The notes under the pieces were generated by a model. The model saw only the letters and a list, made by a program, of their open reading frames with translations. It was not told the DNA's origin and searched no databases. Below are positions 6,643 to 12,784 of a stretch of DNA of 64,000 nucleotides, piece by piece. Source of the DNA: Streptomyces sp. Edi4 (GTDB lineage: Bacteria > Actinomycetota > Actinomycetes > Streptomycetales > Streptomycetaceae); NCBI RefSeq assembly GCF_040253615.1, contig NZ_JBEJGY010000004.1:5146001-5210000 (forward strand), read 5' to 3'. Numbering within the stretch: position 1 is the stretch's first letter; the number at the start of each line of letters is the position of its first letter. A program made the translations under genes and the position numbers.

Positions 6643-8016
6643 TCAGGCGCGGCGGCGGGCCAGGGTGCGCGCTCGGGTCACGGTGCGGGTGCGGGTCAGG
6701 GCGCGGGCTCGGCGGGCGAGTCTGCGGACCGTCGCGTTGCGCGGCACGAAAGCGAGCCGCCCGGGTATCGCGCCCGGAAGGGCGAGCGCGGTCAGGCGGC
6801 GCCGCTTGAAGTAGCGCCACGTGTACGCGTCGAGCGACCCCGCGAGGTAGCGCTCGGCCGCGCCCCGCAGATCCGGGCGGATCTCGGGCTGCATCGCGTA
6901 GCCGACCGCGCTCAGGAGTTCCGGCAGGTCGACGGAGGGCGCCGGCTCCTTCTCCAGGGGCGGGACCAGCGCGTCCACGATGGTCACCGGCACCCGGTTG
7001 CTGTTCTGGTAGGGCGCGAGCCGGTCGAGAAGGAGTTCGGTGCCGACCCGGGCGGTGGGGATGCCGTAGAAAGCCGACGCGGTGAGCAGACCGGTGGAGA
7101 AGCAGCCCACCACGAGCGCGGGGGACAGCCGCTCGTACAGCACCTCGGCGAGCAACGGGCGGTCAACGACGGTCAGTTGGACGCCAAGCGCGTCCGCCTC
7201 AAGCACGAGTTCCCGCGTTCCGGCGAGCGGCGCCGAGGGGTGCGGCTTGAACACGATGTGACGGTGCCCGCGCGCCGCCGCGCCCCGCAGCATCCGCAGG
7301 TGCAGCTCCTCCTCCTGCTCCGGGGTGAGGATGGACAGCGCGGACAGGTACTGGCCGAGCAGGAGCGCCACCGGCTCGCCCCCGGCAACCGCCCCCAACT
7401 CGCCCTCGGTGGCGCCCAGTTCGCTCGCCACCTTCAAAAACGCGGCCGTCGGCACCGGCTCGCACGGCACCTTGAACTCGCCGAGCAGCAGCGGAGCCAG
7501 GCCCGGCACCAGGTCGAGGTGGAGCACCCGGCGCACCCGCCCGCCGATCAGCGGGTCGAGCTTGTTGCGGGTGGGGCCGTACGTCATCAGGCCGTCCGCG
7601 TAGACGGTCAGGGGCGCGTCGGGGAAGAGCTGGGCCACGGCCTGGGCCGGGTTCACCTGGATGGATTCGACGGCGAGCTCGATCCGGTCCTCGCCAAGCC
7701 CCCACAGGGCTCTCAACTGCCGCTCCCACAGCGGGACATCGTCGGCCCTCGGGGACCAGCCGCCGGGGTGGAAGGGCGCGATGGTGGCGTTCCAGGAGAG
7801 CACACCGTCGAAGCGCTCCCGCAGCGGCTCGAAGCCCGGCATGGTGTCCAGCGGCGCCGACGTCTCGGGCACGGGCGCGTTGTTGCTGATCAGCAGGAGC
7901 CGGCGGTCGGCCGCCGGAAAACAGCCGCTGTCGAGCGCGGCGGCCAGCGTGGCCACCCCGTACAGGGTGGACGCGGCGAAGATCTGCGTGGTGCGTACGG
8001 CCGGGGTCGTGGGCAT
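6643..8016 (-). CDS. polysialyltransferase-family glycosyltransferase
   Basis: A 457-aa protein of the alpha-2,8-polysialyltransferase-like group. Visible family marks are an acidic-Gly motif (YADG, Asp141-Gly142), the HP motif in FKPHPSAP (His259-Pro260), and a Ser/Thr motif in VVGCFSTGLLTAS. These are the motifs known to matter in bacterial sialyltransferases. It probably transfers a CMP-activated nonulosonic acid onto a growing cell-wall polymer. Its ATG overlaps the stop of the upstream GT2 gene by one base (TGATG), implying translational coupling. The C-terminal ~40 residues are a basic Arg-rich tail that may bind membrane. Confidence 0.8.
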   Translation of the reverse strand: MPTTPAVRTTQIFAASTLYGVATLAAALDSGCFPAADRRLLLISNNAPVPETSAPLDTMPGFEPLRERFDGVLSWNATIAPFHPGGWSPRADDVPLWERQLRALWGLGEDRIELAVESIQVNPAQAVAQLFPDAPLTVYADGLMTYGPTRNKLDPLIGGRVRRVLHLDLVPGLAPLLLGEFKVPCEPVPTAAFLKVASELGATEGELGAVAGGEPVALLLGQYLSALSILTPEQEEELHLRMLRGAAARGHRHIVFKPHPSAPLAGTRELVLEADALGVQLTVVDRPLLAEVLYERLSPALVVGCFSTGLLTASAFYGIPTARVGTELLLDRLAPYQNSNRVPVTIVDALVPPLEKEPAPSVDLPELLSAVGYAMQPEIRPDLRGAAERYLAGSLDAYTWRYFKRRRLTALALPGAIPGRLAFVPRNATVRRLARRARALTRTRTVTRARTLARRRA

Positions 8017-8999
8017 CAGGCGGCCGCCCCCGCCGAGACGGTGGCCGGCCGGCGGCGCAGCCTGCGCAGCCGGGCGGCGCGGCGGGAGTCCATGGAGTCC
8101 AGCGCGTCCCTGAGATGGTCCTGCGGCAGCCTTCTCAGGGCGTCCGCGCTCAGGGCCCGCAGCTTTCTGGCCACGGCGGGTTCGAACCTTTCGATGCCGC
8201 TCATATGGTGGGAAATGATCGCGCAGTACGTCCGTACCGCTTTCGGGAGCAGATCGGCCGCATTTCGGTCCTTTGCCGTCTCTTCTATTACCTGGTCGAA
8301 TGCGCGAATGAAATCGAGTTGCCGGACATCGCCGATCTGCGTGAGCGAGGAAGCCACGCCGCGCCGGTAGAAGACGCCGAGCGCGCCCGTGACGGCGAAC
8401 GTCCGCGCCTCGCGGTGCAGCCGCCAGATCCACGGCCGGTCCTCCGCGGTGCGCAGGCCGTCGGTGAAGTGCAGCAGGCCCTGGTCGACGAGCCTGCGGT
8501 GGTACATCCCGGCCCACGCGAAGGCGTAGTCCACCGAGGTGGAGCGGGTGGCGGGCAGGATCGCCTCGCGCGGCGACATCACCTCGCCGCGCCGCCCGTG
8601 CGGCACCCGGTGCACCGTACGCTCCTGCCCCGTCACCTGGACATGGTCGGCGCGTATGAAGTCGCAGCCCAACTCCTCGATGGAGGAGAGGAGTTGAGCG
8701 AAGTGGCCCGGCGCCACCCAGTCGTCGCCGTCCAGGTAGGCCAGATAGGTGCCGCGCGCCGCGTTCAGACCCGTGTTGCGCGCCGTGGCCAGACCGCCGT
8801 TGCGTTCGTGTCTGAGCAGCACCGCCCCTGGCAGCTCGCGCTCGGCGCGTTCGAGCAGCTCGATCGTGCCGTCCGACGAACAGTCGTCGACGAGCACGAA
8901 CTCGAAGTCGTCGCGGGTGTTCGCGCGCAGACTTCGCAGGGTGTCGGGTGCGTAGGCGCGCACGTTGTAGAACGGCACGATGACGGAGAGCTTGACCAC
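8016..8999 (-). CDS. family 2 glycosyltransferase
   Basis: A 327-aa GT-A enzyme. It starts with the nucleotide-binding strand KLSVIVPFYN, then FVLVDDCSSDGT, then the metal-binding acidic motif YLDGDDW (Asp90-Asp93). It likely adds a hexose or links the acceptor for the cell-wall polymer made by this cluster. The start is assigned to GTG at 8999 because it opens exactly at the Rossmann strand. There is no clear ribosome site, but TAGCGT lies 8-13 nt upstream and would make a leaderless transcript. The C-terminal ~100 residues are helical and unassigned. Confidence 0.85.
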   Translation of the reverse strand: MVKLSVIVPFYNVRAYAPDTLRSLRANTRDDFEFVLVDDCSSDGTIELLERAERELPGAVLLRHERNGGLATARNTGLNAARGTYLAYLDGDDWVAPGHFAQLLSSIEELGCDFIRADHVQVTGQERTVHRVPHGRRGEVMSPREAILPATRSTSVDYAFAWAGMYHRRLVDQGLLHFTDGLRTAEDRPWIWRLHREARTFAVTGALGVFYRRGVASSLTQIGDVRQLDFIRAFDQVIEETAKDRNAADLLPKAVRTYCAIISHHMSGIERFEPAVARKLRALSADALRRLPQDHLRDALDSMDSRRAARLRRLRRRPATVSAGAAA

Positions 9000-9187
9000 G
9001 GCCGTGACGCTAGGCGCGCCGCGCGTCCTTCGTCCTGTCCGGCGGCCGGATGCCGGATGAACGACGGACGGCGAATTCGTTAACCGGTCCGTCCGTATGC
9101 ACCGGGCGCCATTCGTAGTCACGCTGTTAACCCTTTGTTGCGGCCGAGTTGGGCCGCGAATCCGCCGGGCTTCCTAGTTTCTACGGC
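9000..9187. promoter_or_regulatory. divergent promoter region of the nonulosonate cluster
   Basis: This 188-bp gap separates the two outward-facing arms. The same element precedes each GTG start: CCTAG-CGTCACGGC(C)-GTG leftward and CCTAG-TTTCTACGGC-GTG rightward (9173-9190). Both place a TAG-type -10 hexamer 7-8 nt before the start codon, which suggests two leaderless mRNAs under common control. Two direct GTTAACC copies lie at 9079-9085 and 9126-9132, 47 bp apart. No clear -35 hexamers are seen, so an activator or alternative sigma factor is possible. Confidence 0.5.
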
Positions 9188-10561
9188 GTGCCATCACGTA
9201 CACCTTCACGGCTGCGGATCGCGGTCCTCGCGGATTCGGACACCCGGTGGAAATGGGGCGCGCTCACCGCGCGCCGCCTCGCCGGACAGATGCCCGGATC
9301 CGAGGCCGACGCGTCCCGGCCCGCCGCCTGTGACCTCGACGGCTTCCTGCTGCGCGGCCGCGCCACCCCCACCTCACGCCAGCTCGCCGAGGTCGGCGCG
9401 GACACGGGCGCGCCGGTCGAGCTGACGATGGCTCACTTCCTGGACAGGGCCGCCAAGTCGGCCACAGGGTGCGCCGAGGAGCCCGCGTACGACGTGATCG
9501 TGCTCGCGCTCGTCGGCGGCGCGGCCCAGGCGGCGCTGCACGGACTCGCCGCCCGGTGGCGGGGACGCGCGCGCCGGCCCGTGGTCGTCACCGGCTATGT
9601 CGGCGTCGTCTACGAGAAGCTGGCCGACGGCCTGCTCCTGCGGCACGGCGCGGACATCGTACTCGCCAACTCCCGCCACGACGCGGAGCGTTTCCGCGCC
9701 GTGTACGAGGGAGTGGGCGCCGACGCCGGCGCGGTCACCGAGGCCGCGCTGCCCTTCCTCGGCGGCGCCCCCCACCGCGCCGAACCAGGACGCGACACCG
9801 TCGTCTTCGCCGCCCAGCCCTCCGTGCCGGAGTCCCGCGCCGACCGCCAGTACCTGCTGCGGCGCCTGGTCGCGCACGCCCGGCGCCACCCCGGGCGCGA
9901 GGTCGTGCTCAAGCTCCGCTCACAGCCCGGCGAGCACACCACCCACATCGAGGAGCACCCCTTCCAAAAGCTCGCCCGCGGTGTCGACCTGCCGCCCAAC
10001 TTCCGCCTGGCGTACGGAAACATGGGCGAGGTCCTCGACCGCACCGACCTCCTGGTGACCGTCTCCTCGACCGCCGCCCTCGAGTCCCTGCACCGCTCGG
10101 TCCCCACCGCCGTCCTGACCGACCTCGGCGTACGCGAAAACCTCGGCAACCACCACTTCGTCGGCTCCGGCTGCCTCACCTCCTGGGACCGGCTCGACGC
10201 CGGGCACCGGCCCGCGCCCGACGCCGGCTGGCTCGCCGCCCACGGCGTCGCGCCGGGCGAGGCCCACCAGCGCGCCTTCGACGGCGTACGAGAGCGCCTG
10301 GACGGCCTGCTCACGCGCCGGAGCCTGCCACCCATCGCGCCGTACTACACCCCGGCCACCGCGCCCGGCTATCTGCCCGGTGTCCTCGCCCGCCACCACC
10401 TCGCGCCCGACGGCACCCCGCTGCCCGGCGCGGCCCCCGCGCGCGAGCCGAACGGGCTGCGCCGGGTGTTCAGGGACGCCGTGCGCGACGCGGCGCGCGG
10501 CGCCTACCGCCACGGCGTACAGCGGATCGCGCCCGTGATCCGCCGGATGGGAGAACTGTGA
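9188..10561 (+). CDS. capsule-type glycosyltransferase, polysialyltransferase-like
   Basis: A 457-aa protein, GT-B-like, with no clear match to a named enzyme. It contains VVVTGYVGVVYEK, a nucleotide-sugar region (FAAQPSVPESRADRQYLLRR...VVLKLRSQPGEHTTHIEEHP) and a TVSSTAALESL motif like the Ser-Ser/Thr motif of bacterial sialyl- and capsule transferases. The start is GTG at 9188 with a TAGTTT -10 at 9175-9180, so the message may be leaderless. It is first in a rightward operon with the CMP-synthetase, the nonulosonate synthase and another transferase, and ends overlapping the next start (TGATG). It probably elongates or primes the same polymer. Confidence 0.72.
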   Translation: MPSRTPSRLRIAVLADSDTRWKWGALTARRLAGQMPGSEADASRPAACDLDGFLLRGRATPTSRQLAEVGADTGAPVELTMAHFLDRAAKSATGCAEEPAYDVIVLALVGGAAQAALHGLAARWRGRARRPVVVTGYVGVVYEKLADGLLLRHGADIVLANSRHDAERFRAVYEGVGADAGAVTEAALPFLGGAPHRAEPGRDTVVFAAQPSVPESRADRQYLLRRLVAHARRHPGREVVLKLRSQPGEHTTHIEEHPFQKLARGVDLPPNFRLAYGNMGEVLDRTDLLVTVSSTAALESLHRSVPTAVLTDLGVRENLGNHHFVGSGCLTSWDRLDAGHRPAPDAGWLAAHGVAPGEAHQRAFDGVRERLDGLLTRRSLPPIAPYYTPATAPGYLPGVLARHHLAPDGTPLPGAAPAREPNGLRRVFRDAVRDAARGAYRHGVQRIAPVIRRMGEL

Positions 10562-11772
10562 TGAGTCCAGCGACGGCCACCCCGGCCACCAGGGTCCTCG
10601 CGGTGATCCCCGCGCGCGGCGGCTCCAAGGGGGTGCCCGGCAAGAACCTGGCCCCCGTCGCCGGTGTCCCGCTCGTCGTACGGGCCGTGCTGGCCTGCCG
10701 CGCCGCGCGCCACGTCACCGACGTCGCCGTCTCCACCGACGACCCGGCGATCGCCGCCGCGGCCCGCGCCGCCGGCGCCGACGTGGTCGTCCGGCCCGCC
10801 GCCATCGCGGGCGACACCGCCAGCAGCGAGGCCGCCGTCCTGCACGCCCTCGACGCCTACCCCTCCACCGCCGTCGTGCTGCTCGTGCAGTGCACCAGCC
10901 CCTTCCTGGCCCGCGAGGACGTCGAGGGCGTGGCGGCCGCGGTCGTCGAGGACGGCGCCGACAGCGCGGTGACCGTCGCCCCCTTCCACGGCTTCCTGTG
11001 GCGCGAGGACGAACTCGGCGGCGGCCAGGGCATGGGCCACGACAAGGCGTTCCGGCCGCGCCGCCAGGACCGCCCCCAGGACTTCCTGGAGACCGGCGCC
11101 GCCTACGCCATGGACGCCGCGGGTTTCCGCAAGCACCAGCACCGCTTCTTCGGCCGCACCGCGCTCGTGCGCACCGACCCCGCGCGGGTCCTGGAGATCG
11201 ACGAGCCGCACGACTTGGCGCGGGCCCGCGCGCTCGCCCCCCTCATCGACCCCGCGACCACCCCCGTACTCGACGACGTCGACGCGGTCGTCCTCGACTT
11301 CGACGGCACCCAGACCGACGACAGGGTGCTCATCGACTCCGAGGGACGCGAACTGGTCGCCGTGCACCGGGGCGACGGGCTCGGCGTCGCCGCCCTGCGC
11401 CGGGCCGGCCTGAAGCTGCTCATCCTGTCCACCGAGCAGAACCCCGTGGTCGCCGCTCGCGCCCGCAAGCTGAAGATCCCCGTCCTGCACGGCATCGACC
11501 GCAAGGACCTCGCCCTCAAGCAGTGGTGCGAGGAGCAGGGCGTCGATCCACAGCGCGTGCTCTACGCCGGCAACGACGTCAACGACCTGCCCTGCTTCGC
11601 GCTCGCCGGCTGGCCCGTGGCCGTCGCCGACGCCCACGACTCGGTGCGCGCCGCCGCGCGCGCCGTCACCCGCACCCCCGGTGGCGCGGGAGCCGTCCGC
11701 GAGATCGCCGCCTGGCTCCTGGGACCCGAGCTCGACCGCACCCCCTCACCTGCCATCTCATCCACCCCGTGA
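10561..11772 (+). CDS. CMP-sialate (acylneuraminate) cytidylyltransferase fused to HAD phosphatase
   Basis: A 403-aa two-domain protein. Residues 1-230 form a cytidylyltransferase with the CTP-binding loop IPARGGSKGVPGKN and QCTSPFL, and would activate a nonulosonic acid as its CMP-sugar. Residues 240-400 form a KdsC-like HAD phosphatase: motif I is DFDGTQTDD (Asp246, Asp248), followed by GDGLGVAALRRAG, LSTEQNPVVAARARKL and GNDVNDLPC. The phosphatase part would remove the 9-phosphate left by a phosphate-type synthase, so one polypeptide may do two successive steps. The ATG overlaps the previous stop codon by one base. Confidence 0.88.
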   Translation: MSPATATPATRVLAVIPARGGSKGVPGKNLAPVAGVPLVVRAVLACRAARHVTDVAVSTDDPAIAAAARAAGADVVVRPAAIAGDTASSEAAVLHALDAYPSTAVVLLVQCTSPFLAREDVEGVAAAVVEDGADSAVTVAPFHGFLWREDELGGGQGMGHDKAFRPRRQDRPQDFLETGAAYAMDAAGFRKHQHRFFGRTALVRTDPARVLEIDEPHDLARARALAPLIDPATTPVLDDVDAVVLDFDGTQTDDRVLIDSEGRELVAVHRGDGLGVAALRRAGLKLLILSTEQNPVVAARARKLKIPVLHGIDRKDLALKQWCEEQGVDPQRVLYAGNDVNDLPCFALAGWPVAVADAHDSVRAAARAVTRTPGGAGAVREIAAWLLGPELDRTPSPAISSTP

Positions 11773-11824: not shown

Positions 11825-12784
11825 ATGAGCAACCGTCTGCGCACCCTCGGCAGCCGCACCGCAGGTCCGGGCCGGCCCGTGTACATCACCGGCGAGATCG
11901 GCATCAACCACAACGGTGACCTGGACAACGCGATCGCCCTGATCGACGCGGCCGCCGACGCCGGCTGCGACGCGGTCAAGTTCCAAAAGCGCACCCCGGA
12001 GATCTGCACCCCGCGCGACCAGTGGGACATCGAGCGCGACACCCCGTGGGGCCGGATGACGTACATCGACTACCGCCACCGGGTGGAGTTCGGCGAGGAC
12101 GAGTACCGCGCCATCGACGCGCACTGCGAGGAGCGCGGCATCGACTGGTTCGCCTCCCCGTGGGACACCGAGGCCGTCGCCTTCCTGGAGAAGTTCGACG
12201 TGCCGGCCCACAAGGTGGCCTCCGCCTCGCTCACCGACGACGAGCTCCTGCGTGCCCTGCGGGCCACCGGACGCACCGTCATCCTCTCCACCGGCATGTC
12301 CACGCCGCAGCAGATCCGGCATGCGGTGGAAGTGCTCGGCAGCGCCAACATCCTGCTGTGCCACGCCACTTCGACCTACCCCGCCAAGGCCGAAGAGCTC
12401 AACCTGCGGGTGATCAACAGCCTGATGGCCGAGTACCCCAACGTGCCGATCGGCTACAGCGGCCACGAGACCGGCCTCCAGACCACGCTCGCCGCCGTCG
12501 CCCTCGGCGCCACCTTCGTAGAGCGCCACATCACCCTGGACCGCGCGATGTGGGGCTCCGACCAGGCCGCCTCCGTCGAGCCCGGCGGCCTGGCCCGCCT
12601 GGTCCGCGACATCCGCACCATCGAGGCGGCGCTCGGCGACGGCGTCAAGAAGGTCTACGACTCCGAGCTCGCCCCGATGAAGAAGCTGCGCCGCGTCGCC
12701 GGTGTCGTCGCCCAGACCGAAGCGGACCAGGACGCCGAGCGGGCCGGCAGCGCCACCGAGGACCGCGCTCCGGCCGCGGTCTGA
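11825..12784 (+). CDS. N-acetylneuraminate/nonulosonate synthase (NeuB-type), no SAF domain
   Basis: A 319-aa TIM-barrel enzyme condensing phosphoenolpyruvate with a hexose or hexosamine to give a nine-carbon 2-keto-3-deoxy acid. Family motifs are GEIGINHNGD, DAVKFQKRTPE, FASPWDTE, STGMST, LCHATSTYPA, GYSGHE and ERHITLDR. Typical NeuB enzymes are about 350 aa and end in an antifreeze-like SAF domain; here the protein stops after the barrel plus a short charged tail. The ATG at 11825 has AAGGAA upstream. With the CMP-synthetase/phosphatase it defines the sugar of the cluster as sialic-acid-like, in line with the Kdn-type teichulosonic acid known from Streptomyces walls. Confidence 0.9.
   Translation: MSNRLRTLGSRTAGPGRPVYITGEIGINHNGDLDNAIALIDAAADAGCDAVKFQKRTPEICTPRDQWDIERDTPWGRMTYIDYRHRVEFGEDEYRAIDAHCEERGIDWFASPWDTEAVAFLEKFDVPAHKVASASLTDDELLRALRATGRTVILSTGMSTPQQIRHAVEVLGSANILLCHATSTYPAKAEELNLRVINSLMAEYPNVPIGYSGHETGLQTTLAAVALGATFVERHITLDRAMWGSDQAASVEPGGLARLVRDIRTIEAALGDGVKKVYDSELAPMKKLRRVAGVVAQTEADQDAERAGSATEDRAPAAV

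Follow-up and report, generated by a model that had tools for sequence, protein, structure and literature searches.

A CMP-nonulosonate synthetase fused to a probable Kdn-9-phosphate phosphatase in the teichulosonic-acid cluster of Streptomyces sp. Edi4

The fused gene and its cluster

The stretch of Streptomyces sp. Edi4 DNA analysed here (64 kb, referred to as the window) carries a gene in which a CMP-nonulosonate synthetase is followed by a HAD domain of the KdsC/KDN9PP-like kind (Table 1). The initial annotation had reported this fusion, and it was confirmed as a single open reading frame with Pfam and PDB matches to both halves. The start codon of the fused gene shares bases with the stop codon of the DUF6716 gene before it (TGATG), and the NeuB gene starts 52 bases after the fused gene. 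Pfam CTP_transf_3 (PF02348) matches residues 14-138 with 78.1 bits (cut-off 22.6), and Hydrolase_3 matches residues 314-373 with 36.6 bits (cut-off 20.9). In PDB sequence searches, the N-terminal half matched the NeuA structures 9T4Z (best, E 8e-34), 1QWJ, and 1EYR, and the HAD half matched 3MMZ (E 4e-87, residues 234-393). An AlphaFold model of the protein has a mean pLDDT of 89.3; the angle between the two domains is unsure because pTM is 0.63. VIA-align of the model gave 3MMZ (Z 30.7), 3E81 (Z 25.2, rmsd 2.1, 161 aligned), and 3EWI (Z 24.2) on the HAD side, and 9T4Z and 1EYR (both Z 28.7) on the synthetase side. By profile and by its PARGGSKG.P.KN motif, the synthetase half is a NeuA protein. 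Its closest solved relative by sequence, PpNeuA of Prymnesium parvum (9T4Z), has no HAD domain and is titled a CMP-Kdn synthetase; the Edi4 domain would probably make a CMP-sugar.

Table 1. Features of the fused gene and its neighbours (positions in the window)
Feature	Position	Strand	Basis
Alpha-2,8-polysialyltransferase-like protein (PF07388)	6643..8016	-	Pfam; same cluster
Family 2 glycosyltransferase	8016..8999	-	Pfam; same cluster
DUF6716 putative glycosyltransferase, translationally coupled upstream neighbour	9149..10561	+	Pfam
Fused CMP-nonulosonate (probably CMP-Kdn) synthetase-HAD phosphatase gene	10561..11772	+	403 aa, ATG to TGA, single open frame
CMP-nonulosonate synthetase domain, PARGGSKGVPGKN motif	10594..11256	+	Residues about 12-232; Pfam, PDB sequence and fold matches
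Type C0 (KdsC/KDN9PP-like) HAD domain	11266..11733	+	Residues about 236-391; 3MMZ, 3E81, 3EWI fold matches
HAD motif I DFDGTQTDD, residues 246-254, putative nucleophile D246 and acid/base D248	11296..11322	+	Motif alignment
Motif II S290 and sugar-binding signature E292, R300, K303 (BT1713 E56, R64, K67)	11428..11469	+	Alignment
Motif III K315	11503..11505	+	Alignment; 45/45 fused proteins
Motif IV GNDVND, residues 337-342, N338 replacing first Asp	11569..11586	+	Alignment
NeuB-type synthase lacking a SAF domain at the C-terminus (proposed Kdn-9-P synthase)	11825..12784	+	Pfam and length comparison
Downstream cluster ORF, 358 aa	12811..13887	+	No Pfam/NCBIfam match

The fused gene is part of the cluster for teichulosonic acid, a Kdn wall polymer, that is typical of Streptomyces. 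Streptomyces walls are described as containing a Kdn-containing teichulosonic acid, a Kdn/galactose polymer (PMC11481543, PMC7831098). The wall-polymer cluster has been named as SCO4873-4882 and placed under PhoP (PMC13011467), and SCO4880 appears in one report as a "putative transferase" (PMC2267785). A Pho-box scan gave seven matches with three or fewer mismatches (5.4 expected), and the intergenic region preceding the cluster held none of them. The heptamer GTTAACC occurs only twice in the window, 47 bases apart (9079-9132), in the divergent intergenic region of the cluster, where the two-repeat Pho-box scan had found no match.

The SAF domain of Neisseria NeuB binds the N-acetyl group of ManNAc; its absence would therefore fit a mannose-based sugar. 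NeuB is present in 76 of 80 fused loci, and in 21 of 22 hand-picked loci it lacks SAF and ends no more than 12 residues past the barrel. The one NeuB with a C-terminal extension lies next to a stand-alone HAD (locus L079). The Edi4 genome has one NeuB and one HAD of the KDN9PP-like kind. NeuC above the cut-off was found in none of 14 genomes searched, seven of which had weaker epimerase matches; the Edi4 genome had no match at all. The 358-residue ORF beyond NeuB, which matches no Pfam or NCBIfam family, lies next to NeuB in each of the 12 HAD-less loci examined.

Catalytic residues of the HAD half

The KDN9P phosphatase BT1713 of Bacteroides thetaiotaomicron (3E81) shares with the Edi4 HAD the type C0 fold, both motif I aspartates, the motif III lysine, and the Glu/Arg/Lys signature, but it is a single-domain protein with a GDD motif IV and 26% identity. 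In the alignment, D246, D248, S290 (Thr in BT1713), E292, R300, K303, K315, D339, and D342 are kept. E56, R64, and K67 form the sugar-binding set of BT1713; E56A and E56A/K67A mutants are listed in PDB titles. Position 338 is Asn in the Edi4 fusion (GND) and Asp in BT1713 and KdsC (GDD), and this first Asp of GDD binds metal in KdsC and KDN9PP. The HAD motifs had been described as intact in the initial annotation. This holds for D246 (correctly numbered), D248, S290, and K315, but motif IV, which was not mentioned, is changed. The structural genomics crystal of a Streptomyces avermitilis HAD (3MMZ) is 77% identical to the Edi4 HAD and has the same GND and Glu/Arg/Lys residues, but it holds the HAD part only, and its title names no function.

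The catalytic and Glu/Arg/Lys residues are retained in 44 of 45 fused proteins, including that of Edi4, and in all 80 fused loci of a second set from several phyla and archaea. That set was found with two search patterns, one of which contained motif I, so motif I invariance in it is partly due to selection. The exception among the 45 is L021, from another actinobacterium (G214), which has A246, T290, G292, A303, and H338. In L021, D246, E292, K303, and N338 are lost and fold residues are retained, which makes it a bacterial counterpart of the inactive HAD in vertebrate CMAS.

Comparison of these positions separates three kinds of HAD. The KdsC type (six sequences) has Arg at 292, no Lys at 303, and GDD. 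The KDN9PP type with GDD comprises BT1713, stand-alone L175 and L193-L195, and the fused archaeal L172-L174. The third kind combines Glu/Arg/Lys with GND; it includes the Edi4 fusion and stand-alone L079 and L192. Vertebrate CMAS (mouse C-domain, 3EWI) also consists of a CMP-sialate synthetase followed by a C0 HAD with GN in motif IV, but mouse CMAS has Asn at the nucleophile (motif I NIDG), Arg, Ser, and Lys at the Glu/Arg/Lys positions, and GNE in motif IV. The Edi4 HAD was thus correctly set apart earlier from the inactive vertebrate tail by its nucleophile, D246, and it is not of the vertebrate type, which is a HAD without one.

Against the NCBIfam KDN-9-phosphatase model NF058599, the Edi4 protein scored 73.1 bits, far below the cut-off of 180, and GND departs from the GDD of that family; the C0 fold and E292, R300, and K303 agree with it. 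KdsC identity is not indicated either, with a TIGR01670 score of 80.6 bits (cut-off 106.95), no Arg at 292, and the E292/K303 pair present. The Edi4 HAD most likely works like a KDN-9-P phosphatase, judging from these residues, and we do not claim that it belongs to the BT1713 type.

Distribution and descent of the fusion

By hand count from the match table, 119 of 132 genomes of the same genus match the Edi4 protein through the HAD, nine match only to about residue 235, and four have no strong match. In a phylum sample of 396 genomes, fusions were found outside the genus too (L012-L019, L021). Fused loci also occur in Methanoculleus, another Methanomicrobiales archaeon, Caldilineaceae, Verrucomicrobia, Methylopila, a deltaproteobacterium, and Mycolicibacterium. 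Matches were present in eight of 148 genomes of the Methanoculleus phylum and 17 of 151 of the Caldilineaceae phylum. The 26 match loci from these two phyla comprised 18 with NeuA and HAD in one frame, two with reversed HAD-KdsB, and six without a synthetase in the same frame. In L176 and L177 (Methanoculleus phylum), a KdsC-type HAD precedes a KdsB-like cytidylyltransferase in one frame. The same single-ORF NeuA-HAD fusion in 119 of 132 same-genus genomes and 80 of 80 loci from several phyla argues that it did not arise by chance. Since it is widespread in the genus, the phylum, other phyla, and archaea, the reading of the fusion as unusual was rejected.

HAD-less loci have the same cluster, with the polysialyltransferase-like gene, GT2, DUF6716, NeuA, NeuB, and the 358-residue ORF. 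A different NeuB was expected in the nine HAD-less genomes but was not found; their main-cluster NeuB is 87-92% identical and has the same neighbours. A search for a full-length relative of the Edi4 HAD elsewhere in these nine genomes found none, the best matches being partial and covering motifs III-IV. In five of 12 HAD-less Streptomyces loci (L060, L062, L066, L068, L070), no stop codon separates the NeuA frame from NeuB; the product may be a single NeuA-NeuB protein, or NeuB may have its own start within the frame. In three Streptomyces genomes (L067, L069, L071), the whole cluster is present a second time in diverged form, and this copy too lacks the HAD.

In the NeuA tree, HAD-less rows fall at two separate positions within Streptomyces, and the rows outside are fused. 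This pattern suggests an old fusion and two losses of the HAD within Streptomyces. The nine-row HAD-less group has support of 89/82 (not starred). The HAD tree contains a GND clade (support 99/94) of mostly fused proteins from several phyla and archaea, with L079 and L192 as its two stand-alone members. Mouse HAD is placed next to this clade on a long branch (support 69/85), and the vertebrate HAD may branch there. When 36 Streptomyces fusions were compared in pairs, the HAD half was the better conserved of the two in 592 of 630 pairs, and mean identity was 0.919 for the HAD half and 0.872 for the NeuA half. Median dN/dS over 629 pairs is 0.166 for the HAD half and 0.217 for the NeuA half, rough ratios because synonymous sites are compositionally biased.

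Proposed function and its alternatives

The fused protein is most likely a bifunctional Kdn-9-P phosphatase/CMP-Kdn synthetase that catalyses the two final steps leading to CMP-Kdn when teichulosonic acid is made. Its two activities, its substrate, and its oligomeric state are inferred from the architecture, motif conservation, neighbourhood, and fold match. The SAF-less NeuB would condense mannose-6-phosphate and PEP to Kdn-9-phosphate. The C-terminal HAD would then hydrolyse the 9-phosphate by way of an aspartyl-phosphate formed at D246. In this scheme D248 would serve as acid/base, S290 and K315 would bind the phosphate, and D246 and motif IV would hold Mg. E292, R300, and K303 would read the Kdn part, and relatives suggest that some of them probably come from the neighbouring subunit of a tetramer. 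The N-terminal domain would couple Kdn to CTP, and CMP-Kdn would feed the glycosyltransferases of the cluster. Kdn-9-P and Neu5Ac-9-P had both been named earlier as substrates for phosphatase assays. Kdn-9-P is sensible and the more likely of the two because of the Glu/Arg/Lys signature, the SAF-less NeuB, the absence of NeuC above the cut-off, and the Kdn-type wall polymer. Catalysis by one protein is not obligatory, since the cluster operates with no HAD in nine of 132 genomes of the genus.

The bifunctional reading is open to doubt chiefly on two points, namely the GND motif and the existence of lineages that do without the HAD. GND counts against it because Asn is aligned with the metal-binding Asp, as in mouse CMAS, for which no phosphatase activity was found. 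The HAD could instead be a catalytically silent oligomerisation or stability module as in vertebrate CMAS, with another phosphatase or none acting. The GN shared with mouse, the HAD missing from those nine genomes without an orthologous replacement, and the decayed HAD retained in L021 all point this way, and the mouse C-domain is described as a tetramer without phosphatase activity (PMC8636478). However, a silent module has no reason to keep the nucleophile, Ser, Lys, and Glu/Arg/Lys set in 44 of 45 and 80 of 80 proteins across phyla. Under relaxed selection, in mouse and L021, most of these same residues were lost, and GND proteins also exist as stand-alone proteins (L079, L192). We consider a silent HAD unlikely.

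The HAD could also be active on a different phosphate ester, which might be Neu5Ac-9-P, Kdo-8-P, or some generic sugar phosphate. The substrate is not settled by sequence alone, because the KdsC (97 bits) and KDN9PP (70 bits) profiles are both under their cut-offs, and HAD sugar phosphatases are described as functionally redundant (PMC6200933). Yet the signature is that of KDN9PP, KdsC differs at E292 and K303, NeuC was not found above the cut-off in the 14 genomes, and the wall sugar of the genus is given as Kdn (PMC11481543, PMC7831098), which makes another ester quite improbable.

The type of fusion is already known. Daughtry et al. (2013, Biochemistry 52:5372) reportedly described fused KDN9P phosphatases (KDN9P phosphatase-cytidylyltransferases). 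Those proteins, too, are reported to join a KDN9PP-like HAD to a pathway nucleotidyltransferase and to have the Glu/Lys pair for Kdn, but the Edi4 fusion belongs to the GND clade. The GND clade marker, the twofold HAD loss, and the decayed L021 copy are observations of the present analysis. A literature search found no paper that calls the Streptomyces fusion bifunctional, which is no proof of absence.

If the bifunctional assignment is true, it would attribute to a gene (SCO4880 by gene order) the phosphatase step by which Streptomyces make their Kdn wall polymer. A broader and rather doubtful proposal is that the GND clade is the living counterpart of the dead vertebrate CMAS tail, a tetrameric bifunctional enzyme that dephosphorylates and activates Kdn-9-P in one assembly. 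Streptomyces would have lost its phosphatase half on at least two occasions, and in L021 that half would have decayed in place, re-enacting the vertebrate line. The bifunctional assignment, if true, would also provide an active comparison for the question of what led vertebrate CMAS to retain an inactive phosphatase, since there are natural genes with the HAD, without it, or with a decayed form of it.
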